Assembly: GCF_007745175.1 (NCBI RefSeq)
Contig: NZ_CP036271.1
Coordinates: 3,732,314-3,796,313, forward strand
Length of the DNA: 64,000 bases
Direction: 5' to 3'
DNA from: Caulifigura coniformis
Lineage (GTDB): Bacteria > Planctomycetota > Planctomycetia > Planctomycetales > Planctomycetaceae
A model generated the notes under the pieces. It ran no database searches and was not told the origin of the DNA. It was given only the letters and a program-made list of their open reading frames with translations. The position numbers and the translations under genes were made by a program. Each line of letters starts with the position of its first letter. Position 1 is the stretch's first letter. Of this stretch, positions 52,431-63,164 are shown piece by piece.

Positions 52431-53930
52431 ATGGCCTTCAAATCCAACGATCCGCCCCCGCCCCCCGGAAAAGGTCCGGCCCCAGCCGCCGCCACCCGGC
52501 CGGCGACGCCCACTGCAAAAACCGATGTCACGGGAAAGCCCCCGCTGAAGCCTCCCGCAAATGTTGCGAGTTTGCGGCCGGAACCCGCCAGCAAACGCCT
52601 CGTCTCACTCGATGCCTACCGCGGGTTCATCATGACCCTGCTCGCGGCCAACGGTTTCGGCATTCTGACGCTCTCCAGAACCAGCGAGGACTCCCCGCTC
52701 TGGAAAATCCTGGACCGCGAAACCTGGCAGCACATCGGTTTTCACTTCAATCATCCGGCCTGGCTCAGCAATTTTCCCTTCGGCCCGTCGACCAATCCGC
52801 TGGAAGGAAGTCCCTGGACGCGCGGCGCCGTCTCCCTCTGGGACCTGATTCAGCCCGCCTTCATGTTCATGGTCGGCACGGCGATGGCCTATTCGGCTCG
52901 CAAACGCGACGCCCTCGGAGAGCCGCGCTGGAAGCAGTGGCTGCATGCCTTCCTCAGGGCCATCGTCCTCGTGCTGCTTGGCGTCTTCCTCTCCTCGTTG
53001 GACACACGGCAGACGCACTGGGAGTTCCCCAACGTCCTCGCCCAGATCGGCCTCGGATACGTATTCGTCTTCGCGACCGTTCGCTGGAAATGGTGGGGAC
53101 AGGTCGCCGCCATCGCGACGATTCTCATCGCCACATGGGCCGCATTCTTCACCTTCACTCCCCCTGACAACTACGACTTCGCAGCCGTCAACGCCTCGGC
53201 GGAGCAGGGCGAAGTGCTCGAGAAGCCATTCCGGCAGTGGTCGAAGAATGGCAACTTTGCACACGACGTCGATCTGAAGCTGCTCAACAAGCTCCCGCGC
53301 CTCGAGGACAAGGAAGGGAAGCCGATCCCGTTCACCCACAATCGCGGCGGCTATCAGACCCTCAACTTCTTCCCGTCGATCGCGACGATGATCCTCGGTG
53401 TTCTCTGCGGCCAGATCCTCCAGCGGCCGGTCTCCGCCTGGAAGCGGGTCGGGCTCCTGCTCGGGCTGTCGCTGCTCTGCTTCGGCCTGGCGATGGTCGC
53501 CAGCGTGTACGCCTGTCCGATCGTCAAGCGGATCTGGACTCCCTCCTGGGTGCTGTTCAGCGGCGGCTACGTGATCGCGATGCTGGCGCTGTTCTTTGCC
53601 CTGTTTGACGCGCTCCCCCTCGGCGTCCTCGCGTTCCCGCTGGTGGTCGTCGGAACCAATTCGCTCCTGATTTACCTGATGGGGCAGACTCTTCGCGGCT
53701 GGACGAGCGGCAAGATCATCCACACCCACTTCCACAAGCTCATCGAAAGCGGCCTCGGTGGGCTGGCGAACATCACGGGCCTGACGCCACGCCTCCCGCA
53801 GACAGGGCAGACTCCGGGCGCCGTCATGTACGACCTCTTCGGACCCGTCGTCGATTCGACGGCCGTGTTCTTTGTCTTCTGGCTCGTCCTCTTCGCCCTC
53901 TATCGCAAGCGTCTGTTCCTGCGAATCTGA
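52431..53930 (+). CDS. DUF5009 / heparan-alpha-glucosaminide acetyltransferase-like membrane protein
   Basis: This 499-residue polytopic membrane protein has a Pro/Ala-rich cytosolic N-terminus (about 55 residues) and then the family signature RLVSLDAYRGFIMTLLAANG. About nine or ten hydrophobic segments follow, such as FMFMVGTAMAYSARKRD, IVLVLLGVFLSSLDTRQ and LAFPLVVVGTNSLLIYLMGQ. DUF5009/DUF1624 proteins are related to HGSNAT, which moves acetyl groups across membranes onto glucosamine; the bacterial role is inferred. It converges with mgtE. Confidence 0.88.
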   Translation: MAFKSNDPPPPPGKGPAPAAATRPATPTAKTDVTGKPPLKPPANVASLRPEPASKRLVSLDAYRGFIMTLLAANGFGILTLSRTSEDSPLWKILDRETWQHIGFHFNHPAWLSNFPFGPSTNPLEGSPWTRGAVSLWDLIQPAFMFMVGTAMAYSARKRDALGEPRWKQWLHAFLRAIVLVLLGVFLSSLDTRQTHWEFPNVLAQIGLGYVFVFATVRWKWWGQVAAIATILIATWAAFFTFTPPDNYDFAAVNASAEQGEVLEKPFRQWSKNGNFAHDVDLKLLNKLPRLEDKEGKPIPFTHNRGGYQTLNFFPSIATMILGVLCGQILQRPVSAWKRVGLLLGLSLLCFGLAMVASVYACPIVKRIWTPSWVLFSGGYVIAMLALFFALFDALPLGVLAFPLVVVGTNSLLIYLMGQTLRGWTSGKIIHTHFHKLIESGLGGLANITGLTPRLPQTGQTPGAVMYDLFGPVVDSTAVFFVFWLVLFALYRKRLFLRI

Positions 53931-53946
53931 GCCAGCTCCTGGCACG

Positions 53947-55320
53947 TCAGAACAGGTACATCTTGGCGATCGAGAAGTAGATCACGATCCCCGTCACGTC
54001 GACGAACGTCGCCACGAAGGGGCTCGATGCGTAGCCCGGGTCGAACCCGAGTTTCGTGAAGATCATCGGCAAGATCGAACCGACCAGCGTCCCCCACAGG
54101 CAGATGGCGGCCACGGTCTGGCCGATGACGAACGACAGCGTCAGGCGGTCGACTGCGCCGATGACGCTCGTGGGCGTCAGCACAGGAATCATCACCCGCA
54201 GAAAGCCAATGATTCCCAGCGAAACTCCCAACGCCAGTCCCATCAGCAGCTCGTGGCGGATCACCGTCCACCACTGGCGGACGCCGATGTGCCCCAGGGC
54301 CATCGCGCGGGTGATCAGCGTGGCCGCCTGCGACCCGGAGTTGCCACCCGTCGAGATGCACAACACGGTGAACATCGCCAGCACGACGTGCTCTTCCATC
54401 ACCTTCTCGTAGCGACTCATCGCCGAAAACGTGAAGAATTCCGCGACGAACAGGCACGACAGCCAGACCGCCCGTTTGCGCCACATCGTCGTGAACGGCA
54501 CATCAAGGTAGGGCTCTTCCAGCGGGGCCATGCCGCCCATCCGCTGGGCGTCCTCGGTCGCCTCTTCCACCACGACGTCCAGGGCGTCGTCGTGCGTGAT
54601 GATTCCCACGATCCGGTGATCGTTGTCGACCACCGGAATGGCGATGAAGTCGTACTTGCCCACGATCCGCGCGACTTCCTCCTGGTCCAGGTCGACCCGC
54701 ACATACACCACGTCCGACTGCATGATGTCGCGAACGAGGGCGTTCAGCTTCGCCAGGATCAGGTGCCTCAGTGAAACGAAGCCCAGCAGTTTGCGGTCTT
54801 CGTTCGTCACATAGATGTAGTAGATCGTTTCCTTCTGGGTGGCCTGCTGACGCAGTCGATTGATCGCTTCTTCGACCGTGATGTCCGGCAGCAGGGTCGC
54901 GTAGTCGGTCGTCATCATCGACCCCGCGCTCCCCTCGGGGTACGACAACAGCTTCCGGATATCCTCGCGGTCGGCCTTCGCCATCAGGGGCAGCAGCGAT
55001 TCCACCGCCTGCGGATCGACCCGTTTCAGGAAATCGACGCGGTCGTCGTGCGACATCGCCCCCAGCAGCTGCGACATCCGCTCACGCCCCACCCCCTCCG
55101 CGAGTTCCAGCTGCCTTTCCTCGGGAAAAAACGAGAAAATGTCGGCCTGCCGCTCGACGTCCCCGTGCCCGAGGAGTGCCCAGATTTCCTCGTCCGAAAG
55201 CCCCTCCGTGAACTCCGCCACGCTCGCCGGATGCAGGTCGTTCACCAGCGCCGCCATCCCTTCCGCGTCGCCTTCGGCGAGCATCATCCGGATTTCAGGC
55301 AGCAGAAGCGGGTTCATCAT
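53947..55320 (-). CDS. mgtE: Magnesium transporter MgtE
   Basis: This 457-residue transporter has the three MgtE parts. The N-terminal helical regulatory domain is at about residues 1-130 (LHPASVAEFTEGLSDEEIWA), followed by two CBS domains at about 135-255 (AGSMMTTDYATLLPDITVEE; IMQSDVVYVRVDLDQEEVA). The membrane domain has five helices (VVLAMFTVLCISTGGNSGSQ; ATFVDVTGIVIYFSIAKMYL). ATG 55320 (MMNPLLLPEIR) is chosen over an upstream start that adds an Arg-rich segment. No Mg2+ riboswitch was recognised upstream. Confidence 0.93.
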   Translation of the reverse strand: MMNPLLLPEIRMMLAEGDAEGMAALVNDLHPASVAEFTEGLSDEEIWALLGHGDVERQADIFSFFPEERQLELAEGVGRERMSQLLGAMSHDDRVDFLKRVDPQAVESLLPLMAKADREDIRKLLSYPEGSAGSMMTTDYATLLPDITVEEAINRLRQQATQKETIYYIYVTNEDRKLLGFVSLRHLILAKLNALVRDIMQSDVVYVRVDLDQEEVARIVGKYDFIAIPVVDNDHRIVGIITHDDALDVVVEEATEDAQRMGGMAPLEEPYLDVPFTTMWRKRAVWLSCLFVAEFFTFSAMSRYEKVMEEHVVLAMFTVLCISTGGNSGSQAATLITRAMALGHIGVRQWWTVIRHELLMGLALGVSLGIIGFLRVMIPVLTPTSVIGAVDRLTLSFVIGQTVAAICLWGTLVGSILPMIFTKLGFDPGYASSPFVATFVDVTGIVIYFSIAKMYLF

Positions 55321-55563
55321 GGCGGCACGCACGAGTTCGGGGAGGGCCCGCCCATGGTAACGCCGCCCGCGCAACTTGCAGCGGGGCGAAGTCGCATTCA
55401 GTCAAGACTTCGCCCGCTCCCAACGACCAGGCCGCCGGCGAAACCGGCAAAGCGCCGCACACCGGTCGCAATCGGCTGCGACGTCATTCCCCCTCGTCTC
55501 AGCAATCGGCTCTTCACTGCCTCGTGGACGTGCCAGCCGGCGAGAGGGGCGGGGCGACGAGGG

Positions 55564-56031
55564 TCAATCGGGGATGCGGGTCAGGACGTCGATGCCGACC
55601 GAGTCGGGCGGATCCAGGTGGATCTCACTGTCGGTCACCTTGACGATCCGGACGGGGACCTCCGTCCCCCAGAATTCGACGCCCGTGAACTGACGCATCC
55701 ACGCGGTCAACCATCGACTGACTCGACTTTGAGGAAAGGGCAGGCGCGACCCGAAAACCACATGCGAACCCTTCACCCTCCACGTCTGGATCGGCCAGTT
55801 CTTCAACCGCTTGTGATCGTCGAAAGACACTGTTCCGTTTCGGGAAAACGTGACCTTTCGCACCTTGGAGTTCATCCGGCCGACTTGGCTCCACTGCTGC
55901 CACTTCCCCACGAACCTCGCATCCCCTCGCGGCCAGAACCACCACGAGACCATCGACACCAGCACGAGCACAAACGCGAAGATCAGCCAGCGGTGACGTC
56001 GTCTTTTCGGCGGCGGTGTACTGGGTTCCAT
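55564..56031 (-). CDS. Shared-anchor paralogue A, small membrane-anchored protein
   Basis: This 155-residue protein begins MEPSTPPPKRRRHRWLIFAF, a basic stretch leading into a single transmembrane helix (FVLVLVSMVSWWFWP). It continues with RGDARFVGKWQQ, a lipocalin-like start, and a beta-rich domain of about 110 residues. An N-terminus nearly identical to it is found in three neighbouring genes on the same strand (57727, 58166 and 59109). GAAGGG lies eight bases before the ATG. It is probably anchored in the inner membrane with the domain outside. Function unknown. Confidence 0.8.
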   Translation of the reverse strand: MEPSTPPPKRRRHRWLIFAFVLVLVSMVSWWFWPRGDARFVGKWQQWSQVGRMNSKVRKVTFSRNGTVSFDDHKRLKNWPIQTWRVKGSHVVFGSRLPFPQSRVSRWLTAWMRQFTGVEFWGTEVPVRIVKVTDSEIHLDPPDSVGIDVLTRIPD

Positions 56032-56136
56032 CGGAGCGCCCTTCGAAGATGAGTCTGCTGGAGATCGCGGGATCGCGGTGAGTAGGGAGGAGCGGGTAGA
56101 CTTGCCGTCGCTTCACCCTCGATTCAGACCAAGGCA

Positions 56137-56358
56137 ATGAGTGAGACGGCTCAGACAATCCATCCTCGCTGGCTCGATCCCGTCGCAATAATCCTCACTG
56201 CGCTCAGCGTCATCTACTTCGGTGTGATTTTCACTCTGCGAGCGTACGAATACCCGATCACGTCGGGTTGGTTTCTTCTTCCGGCGTTCGCTTTCTCGTC
56301 GATGTGGATCGCTGTTGGCATTGCCGTGCGACGGCGGATGAAGAGTGAAGATCGCTAG
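56137..56358 (+). CDS. Small two-helix membrane protein
   Basis: This 73-residue protein has a polar N-terminus (MSETAQTIHPRWLDP) and two hydrophobic segments (VAIILTALSVIYFGVIFTL and GWFLLPAFAFSSMWIAVGIA), ending in a basic tail. It lies on the plus strand between shared-anchor paralogues, and its stop codon is directly followed by the start of the next gene, indicating one transcript. No family recognised. Confidence 0.65.
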   Translation: MSETAQTIHPRWLDPVAIILTALSVIYFGVIFTLRAYEYPITSGWFLLPAFAFSSMWIAVGIAVRRRMKSEDR

Positions 56359-56781
56359 ATGGCCGACACCTCTCCCAGGCCGAGACGCAGACTCTGGCCT
56401 TTGCTGCTGACGGTGGCGGGACTGTTACTCGCCGCCGTGACGGCAATCCAGATTCATGATCATCACCGCGAGACGCAGCGAATTCGGCTCATCGCCGATT
56501 TGAAACAAACAGGCGCCTTCGCACAGCTCTACATCAAACCTTCGGAATCTCCCTTGGCTCGCCTTCCGATGCTGGAGGAGTTTTTCGATCGTACCGAGGT
56601 CCTGCTTTACGTCCCCGATGCCGAGAGTGCTGAGGCCGTCCTTCCCATGTTGACGGACGACATCACACGGATCGAGATCCGCGGCCCCGCCCGTGGTCCT
56701 CTGTTCACGTCTCTCAGCGACAAGTTTCGTACCGCCGCTCCTCACGCGGAAGTGCTGTCACGGACAAGGCACGAGCCCTAA
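56359..56781 (+). CDS. Small membrane-anchored protein of unknown function
   Basis: This 140-residue protein has a basic N-terminus (MADTSPRPRRRLWPLL), one transmembrane helix (LLTVAGLLLAAVTAIQI) and a soluble alpha/beta domain containing YVPDAESAEAVLPMLTDDI. It abuts the preceding small membrane gene with no intergenic base and probably forms a two-gene unit with it. It is not a clear copy of the shared-anchor family, although the basic-then-TM layout is similar. Function unknown. Confidence 0.65.
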   Translation: MADTSPRPRRRLWPLLLTVAGLLLAAVTAIQIHDHHRETQRIRLIADLKQTGAFAQLYIKPSESPLARLPMLEEFFDRTEVLLYVPDAESAEAVLPMLTDDITRIEIRGPARGPLFTSLSDKFRTAAPHAEVLSRTRHEP

Positions 56782-56802
56782 GAATGAAGCTGTCGACGCG
56801 CC

Positions 56803-57171
56803 TCAGGTCTGGCCGGCTGGCCCGTGCGACGTTGAGAGCTCGCGGCTGTCAATCGTGAGAACTTGCCCGACAGCGATCGTTTTCCCCTCCCATAGCGTGA
56901 CCGGGGCACCGGGCGAGACCCATTTCATCGCACGTTCGGGATATAGAAACCGGATCGGTATGTCGTACTCTTGTCCGAGTTCATAGCCACCGGCGGCAAA
57001 TGGCCAGAACCGACAATCGAATGCTTGGCCATTCAGGTAGACAGGGCAGCCGTACTTCACGTCTTGAATCCCTTCCCTCACGCCTTGAATTGCCGTCTTT
57101 CGTCCACCTTCGGCGGTCGTGAGGAACCTGACGCGAATCACCGCATGGGGCATGAGAACATCGACGGTCAT
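56803..57171 (-). CDS. Stand-alone EF-Tu domain III-like protein
   Basis: This 122-residue protein resembles the third beta-barrel domain of elongation factor Tu: VIRVRFLTTAEGGRKTAI matches the EF-Tu domain III start, and the pattern PGAPVTLWEGKTIAVGQVL matches its end. There is no GTPase domain. ATG 57171 is chosen because AAGG lies six to seven bases upstream; an alternative start at 57195 adds eight residues. The similarity is by pattern only and the function is unknown. Confidence 0.6.
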   Translation of the reverse strand: MTVDVLMPHAVIRVRFLTTAEGGRKTAIQGVREGIQDVKYGCPVYLNGQAFDCRFWPFAAGGYELGQEYDIPIRFLYPERAMKWVSPGAPVTLWEGKTIAVGQVLTIDSRELSTSHGPAGQT

Positions 57172-57268
57172 TGGTTGCCTTGCGCCTACCGCCACTTCCC
57201 CGTGCTGACAGCGACCCTGCCAAACAACATTCGTCGCCTGCGCTGGTTCAGTGGTGATGAGAGAGAGG

Positions 57269-57727
57269 TCATCGGGTGCGCACTCGTTGCAGATTGAATG
57301 AGTTCCCCGACCGCGACAAGCGGGTATTCAGAAGGTCCCCGGTCAACGTGATGACTTCGGCCCTTTCCTCATAGGCGAGGAGACTGGTTCCGAGATATTT
57401 CCGCATCGCGCCGCTGATCTCGGTGAGCCATCGACTACGTCCGAGGCCCAGTGGTGGGCGGTAGACCAAGGCTCGACCATCGAACTCCCACGAGAAATGC
57501 GTCAATGATTTTCCCGAGATGTCGACAGTACGTCCCCCGCCGCTGCGGTCGAAGATCATGAAAGCCGGGAGAGGTCCGTCGTCGCGAATCAACTGCCACG
57601 TCCCCACAAACCTCGCATCCCCTCGAGGCCAGTTCCACCACGAGACCATCGACACCAGCACCAGAACGAACGCCACGACTGGCCAGCGGCGGAGTCTTCT
57701 AACCGGTTCGATCTGAGTCTTGTCCAT
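57269..57727 (-). CDS. Shared-anchor paralogue B, small membrane-anchored protein
   Basis: This 152-residue protein has the anchor module in altered form: the first residues are MDKTQIEPVRRLRRWPVV, then the transmembrane helix AFVLVLVSMVSWWNWPRGDA and RFVGTWQLI. About 80 bases of its 5' region are nearly identical to paralogue A. The remaining domain is unlike those of the other copies. The start at 57727 overlaps the 3' end of paralogue C by 29 bases on the same strand, so translation may be coupled. Function unknown. Confidence 0.75.
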   Translation of the reverse strand: MDKTQIEPVRRLRRWPVVAFVLVLVSMVSWWNWPRGDARFVGTWQLIRDDGPLPAFMIFDRSGGGRTVDISGKSLTHFSWEFDGRALVYRPPLGLGRSRWLTEISGAMRKYLGTSLLAYEERAEVITLTGDLLNTRLSRSGNSFNLQRVRTR

Positions 57728-58166
57728 CGTGATGCGATTCCAACCCATCAAGTGTCAATAAGGCCTGCTCGACTTTCTGACGGTTGACCGCGACGTCGCC
57801 TCGACGCCGTGCCTTCAAACCTGCGATCGCTGAAGTAAAGCTGCGTCCGGTGCTTTTGGCATCCACGAGAACAATTTGTTCGTCGAGAGTCAGGCTTTCC
57901 CAGACTCTCTGCGCTTCAGGTCTGTCAGACCGGTCAAAGTGCCACAGCCTCCACCCGCCATCTCGTGACTCGATTGGTTCGTTGTTCGGGGGGCGCACGG
58001 GCGGGCGAACGACGTCGCTCACAGGCGGGTGTTCAAATACGAAGTCGTAGCTGCGATCTCGCTGCGGCCAGCACCACCACGCAACCGTGGACGTCAGTAC
58101 AAGGACGAACGCGACGATCAGCCACCGGCGTCGGCGTTTCTTCGGCGGTGGTGTGCTCGGTTCCAT
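57699..58166 (-). CDS. Shared-anchor paralogue C, small membrane-anchored protein
   Basis: This 155-residue protein starts MEPSTPPPKKRRRRWLIVAF, followed by VLVLTSTVAWWCWPQRD. The downstream domain differs from the other copies and has no ARFVG lipocalin start. It contains PPVRPPNNEPIES and a C-terminal helix (LTLDEQIVLVDAKSTGRSF). The anchor half matches paralogues A and D, so the module has been joined to an unrelated C-terminus. Its 3' end overlaps the start of paralogue B. Function unknown. Confidence 0.75.
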   Translation of the reverse strand: MEPSTPPPKKRRRRWLIVAFVLVLTSTVAWWCWPQRDRSYDFVFEHPPVSDVVRPPVRPPNNEPIESRDGGWRLWHFDRSDRPEAQRVWESLTLDEQIVLVDAKSTGRSFTSAIAGLKARRRGDVAVNRQKVEQALLTLDGLESHHDGQDSDRTG

Positions 58167-58292
58167 GTCAGTGGCACAGGTGTCTTCTACGAGGCGTCTG
58201 AGAGGCTGGAGGACGGATCGTCTAGATGGCTCTGCTGTTGGTCCGTGTCGGAGAGCCGGGGAAGGCGGCTAGTTCGGCGACGACCGTAGCTG

Positions 58293-58535
58293 TCAGTCGA
58301 GGCTGGAGTGGTCTGGTTCTCCTTCTTTACCGAAGAACCCAAGACTGAAGCCAAGTGCAAGACCGCCCACCGCTCCCAGGATCCCCGCCATTTGAAGTCC
58401 AATTGCCGCAGCGATTCCGCCGCAGAATGTCCCGGCGACAACCCGACGCGTCATTGAGCGTTGATCTTCGTCGTCCTTAGGAGCGTTGCCGGTTCGCCGG
58501 GCAGGGCCCCACTGGTTGCCGTGATTTTTCACCAT
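58293..58535 (-). CDS. Small glycine-rich membrane protein
   Basis: This 80-residue protein has a polar first third and a Gly/Ala-rich hydrophobic stretch (GIAAAIGLQMAGILGAVGGL and ALGFSLGFFG) with glycine-zipper spacing, ending in an acidic tail. It lies between paralogues C and D on the same strand. ATG 58535 is used, but a second ATG at 58454 would start just before the membrane segment. No named family; the call is on composition. Confidence 0.5.
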   Translation of the reverse strand: MVKNHGNQWGPARRTGNAPKDDEDQRSMTRRVVAGTFCGGIAAAIGLQMAGILGAVGGLALGFSLGFFGKEGEPDHSSLD

Positions 58536-58650
58536 GCCAGAACTCTATTTCCGTCACGCCGCTCAGACCACCAGCACGGCCCTATCGCCACGACAGCGAG
58601 CGTGACGACGATTCGTCGCCAGCGCCGGTTCGGATGTGACGGAGGAGAGG

Positions 58651-59109
58651 TCATTCGGGGATGCGTTGAATCGTGTATGTCGTCGGCTTCGAACCTGGTC
58701 CGCTTAGCCCTCGAAGCGTCACCACCGCCGGGGTGAAACTGACGATTTCACCATCGTAGAACAACTCGTCGCGTGCGCGTCGCCAAAGGAGCAGTTTGAT
58801 GTCGTTGAACGCGGCCTGCCAACCGATCGCCTGATCTGGCATAACCCGCAGCCGGCTCCCGACGGCTTTAAATCGGGCCAGCCCCCGCACAGCAAAGAGA
58901 AGGCGAACACCATCGAATTGCGCGAAGCTGTCGACGAGTCCGTCGTCACGAAACTCGATAATCTGATCGCCGCACTGCCACCTCCCAACAAGCCGAGCGT
59001 TGCCCCGCGACAAGTTCCACCACGAGACCATCAACACGAGCACAAGAACCACAGTGACGATCAGCCAGCGGCGTCGGCGTTTCTTCGGTGGTGGTGTGCT
59101 TGGTTCCAT
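58651..59109 (-). CDS. Shared-anchor paralogue D, small membrane-anchored protein
   Basis: This 152-residue protein starts MEPSTPPPKKRRRRWLIVTV, then the transmembrane helix VLVLVLMVSWWN and ARLVGRWQCGD, as in the lipocalin-like start of A and B. The rest is beta-rich (DGLVDSFAQFDGVRLLFAV) and ends TYTIQRIPE, similar to the ends of A (VLTRIPD) and B (FNLQRVRTR). GGAGGG lies seven bases before ATG 59109, which fixes this start; the open frame continues 109 codons upstream without a conserved pattern. Function unknown. Confidence 0.8.
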   Translation of the reverse strand: MEPSTPPPKKRRRRWLIVTVVLVLVLMVSWWNLSRGNARLVGRWQCGDQIIEFRDDGLVDSFAQFDGVRLLFAVRGLARFKAVGSRLRVMPDQAIGWQAAFNDIKLLLWRRARDELFYDGEIVSFTPAVVTLRGLSGPGSKPTTYTIQRIPE

Positions 59110-59356
59110 CGGGTAGCCCTCCGCACCGAGTTGACCGGGGCGCATGCCGTTGCGGCGAGAGGGTGGCGTTGAGGTCGGGGAATCGCCGGCTGGTGCGTTC
59201 GGTCGTCTCGGGCACAGGGGCGGCCTACGGGGCGTCTGGTGGGCGTGTGTCGCAGCTCGCTGGAAGCCAGAGAGTGGCCGCTTGATGACCGGCATCGGCG
59301 GGCTATGCTCGAAGCGTGGCGAATCGTTTTCCTGTGCATCGGAGGTGCCAATCCCC

Positions 59357-59623
59357 ATGTTCAAGGCCGACGTGATCTCACTCGACGACCAGGTCATCGC
59401 TCGACAGGCGCAAGTCGCTGGCCAGAGTTTTCTCAAGGGCGAGGGACCTGCCCTCTGGCGGGGCTCCTTTCACATCCCGAAGAGTGCCAGGGGGCGGGTG
59501 CAGATGGGCGACACCTTGTACCTGTTGCTGCCGGATCGCGGTCGAATCGGAACGCTCGTCACCGAAGTCGCCGCCCCCATGGTTCACTTCCGGGCCAGGG
59601 GACGGATTCAGGAGTCCGATTGA
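59357..59623 (+). CDS. Small conserved-looking protein of unknown function
   Basis: This 88-residue protein reads MFKADVISLDDQVIARQAQV and continues with FLKGEGPALWRGSFHIPKSA and MGDTLYLLLPDRGRIGTLV, suggesting a compact beta-barrel. GGAGG lies 11 bases before the ATG. It is likely cytosolic, with no signal peptide or membrane segment. It sits just past paralogue D in a divergent arrangement. Not recognised. Confidence 0.6.
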   Translation: MFKADVISLDDQVIARQAQVAGQSFLKGEGPALWRGSFHIPKSARGRVQMGDTLYLLLPDRGRIGTLVTEVAAPMVHFRARGRIQESD

Positions 59624-59679
59624 GGCGTGGACCTCGACAAGACACACCCAAGGACACAGTTCTTCTGTCGGAGACTTTC

Positions 59680-59991
59680 ATGTCGAACCGATTCGCCGTA
59701 GGGACCTTCGTATTCGCTGCTGCGATGTCCGTCATCCTGACGTTTCAGGCTCACTTGAACGCTCAGCAAAAGAGGCCAGAACCGGCGCCGATCGGCACGA
59801 TCAACGATTTAGAGAACAACCAGGTCGTCCCAGCGGCTCCGAGACAGGATGTCGGGCGGCGGCAGTGGGAGTACAAGATCGTCAACGGAGTGACAACCCT
59901 CGATCAGCTGGGGAACGACGGCTGGGAACTGGTGGCTGTCACTCGTGACGACAGCAAGGTGCGAGAGTTGTTTCTCAAGCGTCCGAAGTAG
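59680..59991 (+). CDS. Exported DUF4177-like small protein
   Basis: This 103-residue protein has a signal peptide (VGTFVFAAAMSVILTFQAHL). The mature part contains the DUF4177 pattern WEYKIVNG followed by LDQLGNDGWELVAVTRDD, a short beta-hairpin domain of unknown role. GGAG lies about seven bases before ATG 59680. It follows the preceding small gene by about 57 bases on the same strand. Confidence 0.7.
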   Translation: MSNRFAVGTFVFAAAMSVILTFQAHLNAQQKRPEPAPIGTINDLENNQVVPAAPRQDVGRRQWEYKIVNGVTTLDQLGNDGWELVAVTRDDSKVRELFLKRPK

Positions 59992-60533
59992 TCCGCCGCA
60001 TGCAGCCCGAAGCGTGACACCGTCGGAGATGCCGGAGCAGCCAGGTCCGCACCGAAGTACCTCGGAAGCGGGCGGAAGGGTGACGCGGGGCTGGTGTCCG
60101 TGAGATCATTGTCGACGGAGAGTCCGACGGCCAATGGTACGAGATTCGACGACGATTGAATCATCAGTCACGTCGTGAAACCAATACATCTCATGAAAGG
60201 AGAGGTTTGGCTGTGGACCGAACGCATACTGCAACCGACTGACGAACCACCATATTCGGCTGGGTGGCGCTGGTCTGCTTGCAGCCAGTGCCGAACGTCG
60301 CCGAGACCGCCCTTCGACAAGTACCGTCAGCGCATGCAGGGCCATCGCAAGTAGCTCAAGCGGTTTCACGAGCCGGAGGGGCGGCCGGGGTTGGAGCCGT
60401 TTTCGGCGAAACCCCGGTCGCATGCCAGGGAGGGCAAACGAAGAGAAGTGACTCAGCGGAACGTTGATGAGAAAACGCGGCCTCGGCAACGCTTGACCGG
60501 GGCTTCCTGCGCTTCGCTACGTCCAGCCCCGGC
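59992..60533. other. About 540 bases with no supported gene
   Basis: Open frames occur on both strands, but none has a start signal, a motif or credible codon use. The stretch runs up to the truncated transposase and may contain decayed mobile DNA, but no repeat or remnant was recognisable by eye. Confidence 0.45.
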
Positions 60534-60920
60534 CACCCCGCCGATCACGTCCATACGGTTTGGGAACTGCCACCAGGCGATTCGGATTACTCAACCCGCT
60601 GGCGTCGAATCAAGGGGCTGTTCACGACCGCGTGGATGGCAGCCGGCGGAATGTGCGCTGGAGTGACGCGCAGCCGGTCTGAACGCGGTGAGCGCGGAGT
60701 CTGGCAGCGGCGATTCTACGAGCACACCTGCCGCGATGAAGCGGATCTCAAATGCTGTCTCGACTACCTGCACGTCAATCCGCTAAAGCATGGCCTCGTA
60801 TCGCGAGTTCGGGATTGGCCGTGGTCGTCCTTTCATCGGCATCAGCGGCTCGGTGAATATGAACTCGGCTGGGGCGATGCCTCCGTCTGGTATGGAGATG
60901 AGTTTTCGCAGTTCGAGTAA
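60534..60920 (+). pseudogene. REP-associated tyrosine transposase, 5'-truncated
   Basis: The translated frame [17 protein letters not shown], then [15 protein letters not shown], is the middle of a Y1/REP transposase, with the HxH metal-binding pair readable as HVH. The C-terminal part [32 protein letters not shown] and [10 protein letters not shown] is intact. No start codon or N-terminal domain precedes it, so the gene has lost its 5' end. A palindrome follows immediately (60917-60942), as expected for REP-type elements. Confidence 0.85.
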
Positions 60921-60942
60921 GGTGCGTCTCGACGCACCCTAC
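60917..60942. repeat. REP-like palindrome
   Basis: GTAAGGTGCGTC (60917-60928) and GACGCACCCTAC (60931-60942) are complementary over 11 of 12 positions around a TC centre; the inner 8 bases per arm are perfect. It overlaps the last bases of the transposase remnant and lies just before the toxin-like gene. Confidence 0.7.
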
Positions 60943-60950
60943 GTTCCTAC

Positions 60951-62012
60951 ATGAGCGGCGGCCAGGCCTCGGGCGATTCCGATCCCAATGCGAATGAAGC
61001 CTGGATCGTCCGGGCAATTGCCGGCGTCGGCGGAAAGACGCTCGCGGGCGCGAACGACTTCCAACTCTTCGCGGGAACTACGGCTGTCGCCGCGGGGCTG
61101 GCGTTTGGCGGGTACTACGGACTGGCAGCCGCAGGCTTTACGAGCGCTGCAACGGTTGGTGTTCTGGGTAACTCGCTGGCCGTGGTCAATACGCTCAGTC
61201 TGGGTCTCAGCGGTGCAACTGTGGCGTTTTCGCCGACCGGGTGGAACAGCGCGAACTTCGTCGCCGACACCGCCAACTTGGCAATTCAAGCGACGATCGG
61301 GCGCTTCACCGGCTTAGCGCGTTTAGGTCTGCAGGGATTGGACATTGGGATCAATCTGTTCCAGAGCGGCCAGTCGGCTATTGCCGCCCGCGAATCGTTC
61401 TCGCGGGGCAATAACGTCGCGGGTACGTTTGAGGCAATCGGAGCAGGATTTGGGATTTCCGCCGCTGGGCTTCAAGGAGTACGGGCACTCCACAGAAGTG
61501 CGGCGATAATGGGCCAAGCACCTCAAATCTCGCCTGCATGGAGAATCAACGAAGGCGGCGTAGTACGAGCGGAGACCGAAATTCCGGGAATCCTGGCGCG
61601 AGCAGGAGTCCACGTTCCTGAGGACGTTATTCTTTCGGTTGGCAATGCAAGCGACTTTCATGGAACGATCGAAGACATCTTTGCTGGGCGCAGTGTGTTG
61701 ACTGGCATGATTCCTGGAATTGGCACTTATGGGCGATATGTGCAGTTCGACCGTATGAGAAATAGGTTCGGCAAGATCCCGATTCGGATCAACCCCGATA
61801 TGATGAGAAGCGATGAGGCAATCGTCGGCGTATTCGCACACGAGCTCCACGAGCTGTCCTTATTCAGGAATGCGTTTTCGAAAGGAGGCGGGAGGCTCAC
61901 ATTTGAGCGTTGGAGTGGAGAAGCAATGCCAGGAAATTATGGAAATTTCCATGACCAAGCTTGGGATGCAGCAGATACTGCCGTCCGACGTATGCGAGGC
62001 TACCAGCCATGA
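60951..62012 (+). CDS. Candidate polymorphic toxin C-terminal protein
   Basis: This 353-residue protein starts nine bases after the REP-like palindrome and has no recognisable secretion leader. Residues 30-180 are Ala/Gly-rich and hydrophobic, resembling the pre-toxin region of RHS-type proteins. The C-terminal 170 residues are distinct and contain AHELHEL (296-302) and FHDQAWDAAD (333-342), which could be catalytic but match no family that I can name. G+C falls from about 67 % at 61021-61080 to 50 % at 61741-61800. The stop overlaps the next gene by ATGA. Toxin activity is inferred from this architecture. Confidence 0.6.
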   Translation: MSGGQASGDSDPNANEAWIVRAIAGVGGKTLAGANDFQLFAGTTAVAAGLAFGGYYGLAAAGFTSAATVGVLGNSLAVVNTLSLGLSGATVAFSPTGWNSANFVADTANLAIQATIGRFTGLARLGLQGLDIGINLFQSGQSAIAARESFSRGNNVAGTFEAIGAGFGISAAGLQGVRALHRSAAIMGQAPQISPAWRINEGGVVRAETEIPGILARAGVHVPEDVILSVGNASDFHGTIEDIFAGRSVLTGMIPGIGTYGRYVQFDRMRNRFGKIPIRINPDMMRSDEAIVGVFAHELHELSLFRNAFSKGGGRLTFERWSGEAMPGNYGNFHDQAWDAADTAVRRMRGYQP

Positions 62013-62263
62013 ATGCAGTTGAAGAGGCCTTGCATGACTATGATACAGGGCGATTTACCGCATATGATACGGTATGTAAAATACTTACTAACGTTGACTC
62101 AGTGGGCTCACTCGAAGTGTTGAACCACCTGACTCCGGACTTGGTTCACGAGCTACGTGAACTGATTAGCGCTCTCGACGCGGGAGAACGCATGTCGGGC
62201 CATTGGGTCCCAACAAGTAAACAGCTTGATGCTGCGAAGTTGTGGCTCAAAGCACGAGATTAG
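62009..62263 (+). CDS. Candidate immunity protein partner
   Basis: This 84-residue helical, acidic protein begins MNAVEEALHDYDTGRFTAYD and contains LEVLNHLTPDLVHELRELIS. Its start ATG 62009 overlaps the stop of the toxin-like gene by ATGA. The small size, coupling and very low G+C (23 of 60 bases at 62041-62100) are typical of immunity genes in polymorphic toxin modules. No family recognised. Confidence 0.6.
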   Translation: MNAVEEALHDYDTGRFTAYDTVCKILTNVDSVGSLEVLNHLTPDLVHELRELISALDAGERMSGHWVPTSKQLDAAKLWLKARD

Positions 62264-62279
62264 TTGTCAGCGGCCGGGT

Positions 62280-63164
62280 GCGTTCGACGTGTGCCTGCTG
62301 ATTCGGCGAGGCAATCGCCGTCCTGACGACTTCTGACCCCGCCGATTCCAGAAGCTAGTCAAACTCCGGCGTGAACGTCGTGTCGTTGTCGTGGACGATG
62401 TGGGTCGGCGACAAACAGGCGTCCTCGGCCATGAACTGAAAGTTCCTCGCCTGCTGGGCGACCCAGGCCGAATCCGGCCTGGCCGTACAGGGGCTGATCC
62501 ACACCCGCCGAGTCCCCAGGTGCAGGAATACCAGCAGGTACAGATCGATGGGACCGCGCAGCGTCCACAACCGCTTGGTGCAGAAGTCGCATTCCAAAAG
62601 CGTCGCTGCGTGACGCTTGAGAAAGCCGCCCCAGGTGTCGCTGTCATCGTCCGGAACCGGAGGAATGTCAGCCTCCGCCAGAATGCGGGCCACCGTCTGT
62701 CGAGACAGTTTCAGTCCCAGCTTTCGCAATTGTCCGAGCAGCCGGCGGTAGCCATATCCGGTTTTCCGACGAATCCTGATCACGAGTTCGCAAAACTCGA
62801 CATCCGTTTTGGGGCGTCCGGGAGTTTTTGGGATCGTCTGCTTCTTTCGGATCGGCCTCTCCGTTTGGCGCATCCAGCGGCGAAAGGTGTCGTAGCTGAC
62901 AATCGTCAGCAGTTCACGCAGACTGGCCCCCAGCTGCCGTCCGGCCCGAATCAGACGGCGACGTTCCTGGACGGTGGTGACGATCCGCGGGGGCAATCGC
63001 GTTCGCAGAATCTGGTTCTCGACCTTGAGGTAGGCCACCTGCCGGGCCAGTTCTTGCCGGCTGACCGACGCCAGGATCGCGAACAGTGGATGCAAGAGGC
63101 GCATGGCGAAACACGGAAAGCTGTGAAAAGTCGCGACAATGAGCGAGCGGTAAAAACTTGGCAC
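62280..63164 (-). pseudogene. Integrase-core (rve/DDE) transposase, in-frame stop and lost C-terminus
   Basis: The open part (63164-62355) encodes a helix-turn-helix region (RAGRQLGASLRELLTIVSYD) and the rve catalytic core, with the first Asp in LLECDFCTKRLW and the second in VHDNDTTFTPEFD. A TAG stop then interrupts the same frame (62355-62357). Reading continues LLESAGSEVVRTAIASPNQQ and AHVER, which contains the expected catalytic Glu, before the similarity ends near 62280. The whole C-terminal domain is missing. This is a decayed insertion sequence; no terminal repeats were found. Confidence 0.85.

Follow-up and report, generated by a model that had tools for sequence, protein, structure and literature searches.

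To our knowledge, the best-described gene families with a variable middle between conserved ends are those of parasites, in which host immunity usually serves as the explanation. For type III effectors, Stavrinides et al. are said to have described in 2006 a terminal reassortment, by which a promoter and an N-terminal targeting segment become fused to new C-termini. According to the passages drawn on here, the erp genes of Borrelia combine one promoter, leader and localisation sequence with many diverse outer sequences (PMC10016077), and these paralogues lie on co-resident cp32 prophages that recombine (PMC10016077, PMC5870499). As far as the cited portion describes them, the babA, babB and babC genes of Helicobacter pylori have nearly identical ends, a divergent middle and gene conversion between loci (PMC4552749); terminal reassortment of type III effectors is itself treated in a citing passage (PMC9963460). 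In this study, we analyse four minus-strand genes, A, B, C and D, in a stretch of 64,000 nucleotides of the planctomycete Caulifigura coniformis (NZ_CP036271.1, positions 3,732,314 to 3,796,313; hereafter the window), and the gene family around them. The genes begin with an N-terminal module made of a basic stretch and a membrane helix, which in A, B and D ends at a VGxW motif and across the family occurs in three types; the outer part behind it is called the payload.

We regard it as rather probable that the start and junction blocks of these genes recombine among copies of integrative elements, while the anchored lipocalin-like outer domain differs from copy to copy. Genes A, B and D would be members of the family and gene C a chimeric or decayed one. 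The original prediction knew of no described system with this layout; the erp and bab genes, in the passages cited above, are comparable. Type-1 genes resemble erp in layout, without any claim of common ancestry: a conserved 5' non-coding and targeting segment, a divergent outer part and many copies. Three related integrase-bearing elements carry clusters of the family and might be likened to the prophages of erp, although their own prophage nature derives from weak matches; the window cluster is not near an integrase. In contrast to the Erp proteins, which the same passages present as lipoproteins encoded on circular prophage plasmids of a parasite, the proteins described here have a transmembrane anchor and one lipocalin-like domain family and belong to chromosomal elements. 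The bab genes, in the portion cited, are few and encode outer-membrane adhesins, whereas here about thirty dispersed short proteins are found. Terminal reassortment, as the citing passage gives it, resembles gene C and the gene at 3423875, but most members of the present family keep one domain family. Within the search terms used and the parts of the literature they reached, no planctomycete counterpart was found.

The four open reading frames (ORFs) lie where they had been claimed (Table 1). Genes A, C and D start with MEPSTPPPK and gene B starts differently, so that the predicted three of four is correct, and the basic stretch and a VLVLVS/VLVLTS-type helix, described as VLVLVSMVSWW-like, are common to all four. 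An RFVGxWQ-like start was likewise expected in three of four; the motif reads R(F/L)VGxW in A, B and D and is missing from C. A small membrane gene does lie between paralogues, i.e. the 80-amino-acid ORF at 58293-58535 between D and C, for which Pfam and NCBIfam give no family at E <= 1.

In type-1 genes, the module is younger than the payload at silent sites. Codon statistics cover 19 genes, eight of them type-1; third-type genes were outside the sample, which also excludes L011 for its in-frame stop, L028 for want of a helix and gene C for want of a payload. Among the eight type-1 genes (28 pairs), four-fold sites match in 275/458 cases (0.60) in the N-terminal module and in 102/307 (0.33) in the rest of the gene, with saturation at 0.284. 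Conserved columns alone give 0.61 and 0.34, with a bootstrap difference of 0.26 (0.05 to 0.49) and 1.25% of replicates at or below zero. Since payload silent sites are at saturation, a comparison of dN/dS, the ratio of non-synonymous to synonymous change, between the gene halves is not meaningful. As a control we used PF07596, a very large prepilin-like family with 115 matches in the same genome, of which 22 of 30 loci were taken (one of the 231 pairs is the same gene read twice); it was found in none of 14 control genomes, and its abundance here agrees with a planctomycete host. In these 22 genes the N-terminal protein identity is 0.95, yet the silent match is 0.43 in the N-terminal part (median pair 0.41) and 0.40 in the rest, and a smaller four-gene sample gave 0.31-0.38 for the N-terminal part. 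A conserved N-terminus alone therefore does not keep silent sites. Ordinary divergence of one fold is set aside on these silent-site ages and this control.

The change in age falls at one codon. Across 45 type-1 pairs, ungapped DNA identity falls from 0.80 over the 15 bases that run up to the W codon of the motif to 0.28 over the 15 that follow, and a type-2 pair drops from 0.80 to 0.27. The type-3 pair is identical (1.00) for 60 bases before the boundary, stands at 0.40 in the 15 bases after it and at 0.20 thereafter; its payload DNA aligns no better than shuffled sequence (z 1.2). The boundary between module and payload is one codon wide. Genes with more nearly identical modules do not have correspondingly similar payloads (Mantel r 0.10, p 0.14 for 19 genes; -0.02 without L025), and the mean payload z is 3.14 within module types (45 pairs) and 2.97 between types (231 pairs). 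Module starts are joined to unrelated tails in gene C and in the gene at 3423875, and occur as stubs at 5746609 and in the remnant after gene D. For the tail of gene C, a search of 40 genomes gave no non-self match better than E 0.012. The original prediction had spoken of a copied module attached to varying domains. Copying agrees with the silent-site youth, the one-codon step, the chimeras and the stubs; the varying domains hold for gene C and fail for A, B and D.

The conserved DNA is not confined to coding sequence. The 5' ends match in five of the six pairs, A/B (84% over 108 bp, E 4e-26), A/D (76% over 149 bp, E 7e-23), A/C (80% over 103 bp, E 6e-18), C/D (82% over 93 bp, E 6e-18) and B/D (77% over 100 bp, E 1e-13); B/C gives no match at E 1e-5. 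The homology claimed for them is thus beyond chance, and "nearly identical" overstates it. Gene D shares 54 bp of an upstream non-coding stretch that reaches about 70 bp at A, at the stub at 5746609 and at L010, L011 and L012. Within the genome, the inverted repeat AGTCTACC-N-TAGACT has its exact form at only four places, all just upstream of the cassette; the copies at gene A and at element E3 (see below) are degenerate. In the other direction, blastn matches of the gene A 5' block to other loci stop at the W codon. Similarity to other loci extends past the stop codon at B and D, not at A. In several type-1 genes the terminal RIPE overlaps the ATGACC of a type-2 gene start, and the type-2 gene is reduced to a stub at B, D, L012 and L028, gene A having none. 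At gene D the overlap is ATGA and similarity stops at about codon 29 of the type-2 gene. No Rfam family was found in window positions 53000-62500.

The outer parts of A, B and D, as judged from sequence profiles, are one domain family. In a leave-one-out test, payload-only profiles were built without the tested gene and compared with 2000 shuffled decoys, for 28 of the 32 payload-bearing profile matches (L011, 2834590, 5931850 and 5570645 were left out). All 28 payloads were recovered at E 4.4e-4 or better, the best shuffled decoys reaching 0.007-0.3. Gene A was found at E 1.1e-13 (best decoy 0.011), gene B at 2.2e-5 (0.12) and gene D at 3.6e-4 (0.16); in gene C and in the gene at 3423875, the payload profiles did not pick up the tail. 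On this test we set aside the candidate reading that the C-termini of the four genes are all unrelated. That the C-terminal halves are not alike, as first stated, is right for the DNA and for the tail of gene C and wrong for the domain in A, B and D.

The domain is likely a lipocalin-like beta-barrel, as the model of gene A suggests. Built from three window sequences, this model (predicted local distance difference test, pLDDT, 61.6) has the order helix, five strands, helix, three strands. In Foldseek, its best match is 5byp, an uncharacterised Bacteroides protein (E 3.1e-4), followed by 4qrl and 3hty, Bacteroides proteins described as lipocalin-like; the top six rows, all chains of these entries, have probabilities of 0.99-1.00 and TM scores of at most 0.62 for a model of this pLDDT. 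The gene D model (pLDDT 50.1) is uninformative for fold. Weak Pfam matches among 20 members concern DUF5640 (2/20, best E 7e-4), Lipocalin_8 (1/20, E 0.005) and Lipocalin_3 (3/20, best E 0.0066). Gene A itself has in Pfam only a sub-cut-off match to FixQ, over its helix, nothing above the curated cut-off in Pfam or NCBIfam, and no match in PHROGs or PADLOC. The 20 members matched three PHROGs families, each by one member (best E 0.0056), and no PADLOC defence model (0/20). Bacterial lipocalin-like domains (Pfam Lipocalin_3, Lipocalin_8; PDB 4qrl, 3hty, 5byp) resemble the family in the Foldseek matches of the gene A model and in the weak Pfam matches of a few members, and differ in that the family is anchored by a transmembrane helix and has a predicted helix before the last three strands. 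One lipocalin-like fold with ordinary divergence had been named as what would count against the original prediction; the shared fold probably holds for A, B and D, ordinary divergence does not.

Three clusters of the family lie inside related integrative elements, E1 (~3406-3425k), E2 (~5746-5770k) and E3 (~4509-4528k; ends approximate). The elements have in common relatives of an excisionase-like helix-turn-helix (HTH) protein, a 312-amino-acid protein, a serine recombinase, a 256-amino-acid protein and the MAKKSA gene, and an 812-868-amino-acid protein with a weak tape-measure match (E 1.6e-3). AAA_25 proteins occur in E2 and E3, and E1 has one 26% identical to that of E3. Each element has a tyrosine-integrase domain, the integrase of E1 being without a match to that of E2, and L010 is adjoined by a partial integrase 62% identical to that of E1. 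Besides the MAKKSA gene, the neighbours that recur beside family members belong to two large unrelated families or to a few single pairs. The 256-amino-acid protein has distant relatives in 52 of 170 genomes of the same GTDB family, own genome included, and is therefore not specific to these elements; none of its relatives was found in viral contigs.

The elements are mosaics. Silent match is 0.39-0.62 for most of their genes. A 165-amino-acid membrane-protein gene of E1 and E3 (L185:10779-11273, L187:10763-11257) is 97% identical with a silent match of 73/76, other compared genes of this pair being 67-84% identical. E2 and E3 share a stretch of 757 bp at 92.7% identity, other shared genes being 65-85% identical (MAKKSA gene 0.70). 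This stretch covers DNA without a recognised gene and ends 13 bp before the stop codon of L012; beyond it, the small ORFs of E3 are unrelated. Two other loci have counterparts, 85-88% identical, of a 180-bp distal block in E1. Element genes of such unlike age point to recent exchange among element copies. Clusters with the exact inverted repeat are all within 20 kb of an integrase (3/3, p 0.0024), and with the degenerate repeats of E3 and the window added, four of five are (p 0.005). The window array may be an old copy away from its element.

These observations would fit together as follows. The protein would be held in the inner membrane by its helix, with the basic N-terminus inside, by the positive-inside rule, and the weakly modelled barrel facing the periplasm. 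Part of the family, as in the three clusters described, appears tied to multi-copy integrative, perhaps phage-derived elements. The 5' promoter and anchor block, the junction with the next gene start and the distal block would owe their lasting similarity to recombination between co-resident copies, through gene conversion or crossing-over; the intervening domain-coding segments would diverge fast, decay or be exchanged. Recombination between copies would account for the discordant ages, and payloads may have been exchanged. That the barrel varies while promoter and anchor stay constant suggests contact of the outer domains with a variable partner.

Several points weigh against this account. 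Among the 30 best pairs, none combines highly identical payloads with different modules, so that payload exchange within the genome is not seen directly; the best of these pairs (0.40) has the same module type, and the next reaches 0.34. At loci L083 and L085, two shared genes with silent matches of 29/48 and 55/130 weaken payload replacement alone as the explanation for that pair, as with shared genes so old the saturated payloads are unsurprising and the young blocks are the anomaly. Homogenisation of the blocks is better supported than replacement of payloads, since the blocks are younger than most backbone genes of the elements. The silent-site contrast is weak in the other 11 family genes (0.37 in the N-terminal part, 0.31 in the rest), modest in the tandem cluster of genome G085 (16/33 and 12/42) and absent from that of G089 (35/89 and 60/170), while some PF07596 control pairs reach a high N-terminal match (95% quantile 0.62). 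A putative orthologue pair from two species, with no further copies found, shows the contrast (18/21 and 19/36), which could fit constraint on the 5' end. Seven of 21 family clusters lie within 20 kb of an integrase match, 3.2 being expected, but 14 lie farther from any, and the enrichment over all clusters is no stronger than p 0.046 for a 20-kb and 0.025 for a 5-kb threshold, both chosen post hoc; the window cluster is 179 kb from the nearest match. Ten element proteins included no head, portal or large-terminase match, and the tape-measure match makes a weak case for their phage nature. The structure models of A and D, finally, are poor.

A rival history does without recombination: after ordinary duplication, the outer domain would have diverged fast, and purifying selection on the protein would have preserved the anchor. 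In line with it, the payloads of A, B and D are homologous, L024 and L025 resemble an ordinary diverged pair (payload 40% identical), and the silent match of most backbone genes indicates old loci, in which saturated payloads alone are not odd. Purifying selection on protein, however, left silent sites of the PF07596 N-terminus at 0.43 under almost invariant protein, whereas 0.60 and 0.33 stand side by side in the same type-1 genes. The same history does not account for 60 identical bases followed by random-like sequence, for non-coding flanks that align where coding payloads do not, or for 757 bp at 93% between elements whose other shared genes are 65-85% identical. This explanation was already disfavoured and we hold it to be improbable.

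Constraint on the DNA or messenger RNA itself would also keep silent sites, the blocks being conserved as promoter, operator or leader structure and not copied. The restriction of the exact AGTCTACC-N-TAGACT repeat to four places upstream of the cassette agrees with this, as do the folding z scores of three inverted-repeat copies (-3.4, -2.3, -1.9), the putative orthologues in two other species and the G085 paralogues. Against it stand partial block copies with different ends, at B, C, D and 5746609, and an N-terminal silent match of just 0.37 in the other 11 genes together; the 757-bp block spans a stretch without recognised gene, and Rfam is silent on the region. We think such constraint unlikely as the explanation. 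The sharp boundary might also be the work of a recombinase that joins payloads there, much as integrons or shufflons do: the boundary codon, that of VGxW, is the same in three module types, and serine and tyrosine recombinases lie inside the elements. Yet chimeras and remnants break elsewhere (at about codons 28, 29 and 34), and the DNA near the boundary is alike partly because it encodes VGxW. Site-specific exchange seems very unlikely. Recombination of blocks between element copies remains the explanation we prefer.

The family is probably large and lineage-specific, with about thirty small membrane-protein genes carrying very different versions of one outer domain. Gene A as query gave 22 matches in its own genome and none in 39 others, one of them a congener, out of 40 whole genomes searched; this congener (G001) was matched neither by gene A nor by the family profile. 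With a profile built from 20 paralogues, the own genome gave 38 places at E <= 0.1; at E <= 0.001 there were 34, among them the 20 rows of the profile itself; for gene C and the gene at 3423875 the match is confined to the module. The 38 places, which include some matches to the module alone (E up to about 0.06), form 21 clusters, and family members are thus found grouped as well as scattered. Of 170 genomes from the same GTDB family, at least 17 are matched, own included, with up to 22 candidates per genome scored, and G085 and G089 have three tandem copies each on one contig. A module that is ubiquitous and not clustered had been named as a second counter-finding; presence in 1 of 40 and at least 17 of 170 genomes is not ubiquity, and clustering is found together with dispersal. 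Phage records contained no relatives, and a pattern search of viral contigs gave none either; among genome contigs, two weak loci in unrelated organisms matched one short pattern.

As to function, the proteins might be envelope cargo that, for example, excludes competing phages or elements; this is our best guess, speculative and not a likely one, and the defence models gave no match. Tentative, and less likely than not, is the idea of a planctomycete, a bacterium not known as a parasite, with an erp-like diversification of its own, in which phage-like elements would use the blocks as recombination handles, swap payloads between elements and strains and meet an ever-changing partner to be recognised. 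The layout in a planctomycete, together with the age difference between blocks and payloads and the link to integrative elements, raises the question of whether such shuffling needs any driving force beyond competition among phages or elements. Comparing silent sites on either side of a domain boundary, with an unrelated control family, offers a simple test for such systems elsewhere.

Table 1. Genes and shared DNA blocks of the array, in window positions
Feature	Positions	Strand	Description
Gene A	55564..56031	-	155 aa (amino acids); basic start, single helix (signal anchor), VGKW, lipocalin-like domain (likely); ends LTRIPD
5' block of gene A	55900..56102	-	about 70 bp non-coding upstream (degenerate inverted repeat) and codons 1-44
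3' block at end of gene B	57207..57276	-	type-2 gene-start remnant; 77% over 71 bp to L083
Gene B	57269..57727	-	152 aa from ATG; lipocalin-like domain (likely); start overlaps 3' end of gene C
Partial 5' block in gene B	57596..57700	-	starts at about codon 10, stops at W codon 44
Gene C	57699..58166	-	155 aa; type-1 module and orphan tail
Module part of gene C	58064..58166	-	codons 1-34; 85% to L084 over 106 bp
Weak match overlapping start of gene C	58147..58202	-	56 bp, 77%, E 2e-5, to distal block of E2 cluster
Membrane ORF	58293..58535	-	80 aa; between genes D and C
ORF after gene D	58529..58654	-	41 aa; decayed type-2 paralogue
3' block of gene D	58567..58665	-	last codons (RIPE) and type-2 gene start; 83-85% to L084, L083
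Gene D	58651..59109	-	152 aa; type-1 module and lipocalin-like domain (likely); ends IQRIPE
5' block of gene D	58978..59163	-	54 bp upstream and codons 1-44; 79% to L083 over 187 bp
Distal non-coding block piece upstream of gene D	59171..59238	-	78% over 68 bp to E2; 81% over 52 bp to E1

Other ORFs lie between and beyond these genes. Between A and B, a 130-amino-acid ORF (56803-57195, minus strand) has no Pfam or NCBIfam match; by eye it resembles part of EF-Tu, an impression without Pfam support. Beyond gene D, a 353-amino-acid ORF (60951-62012, plus strand) without a Pfam match resembles the C-terminal region of Rhs/polymorphic-toxin proteins. The preceding fragment (60636-60920, plus strand), also without a Pfam match, is reminiscent of REP-associated transposases, and a transposase-like ORF at 62355-63164 (minus strand) has sub-cut-off HTH and rve matches. 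Elsewhere in the genome, a second small family with a similar basic-anchor start and another conserved outer part is found at 3560848 (L084), 6439293 (L182) and 6158912 (L183). At the start of this second family, L084 has 46 bp at 91% identity in common with 5750290 (L085).

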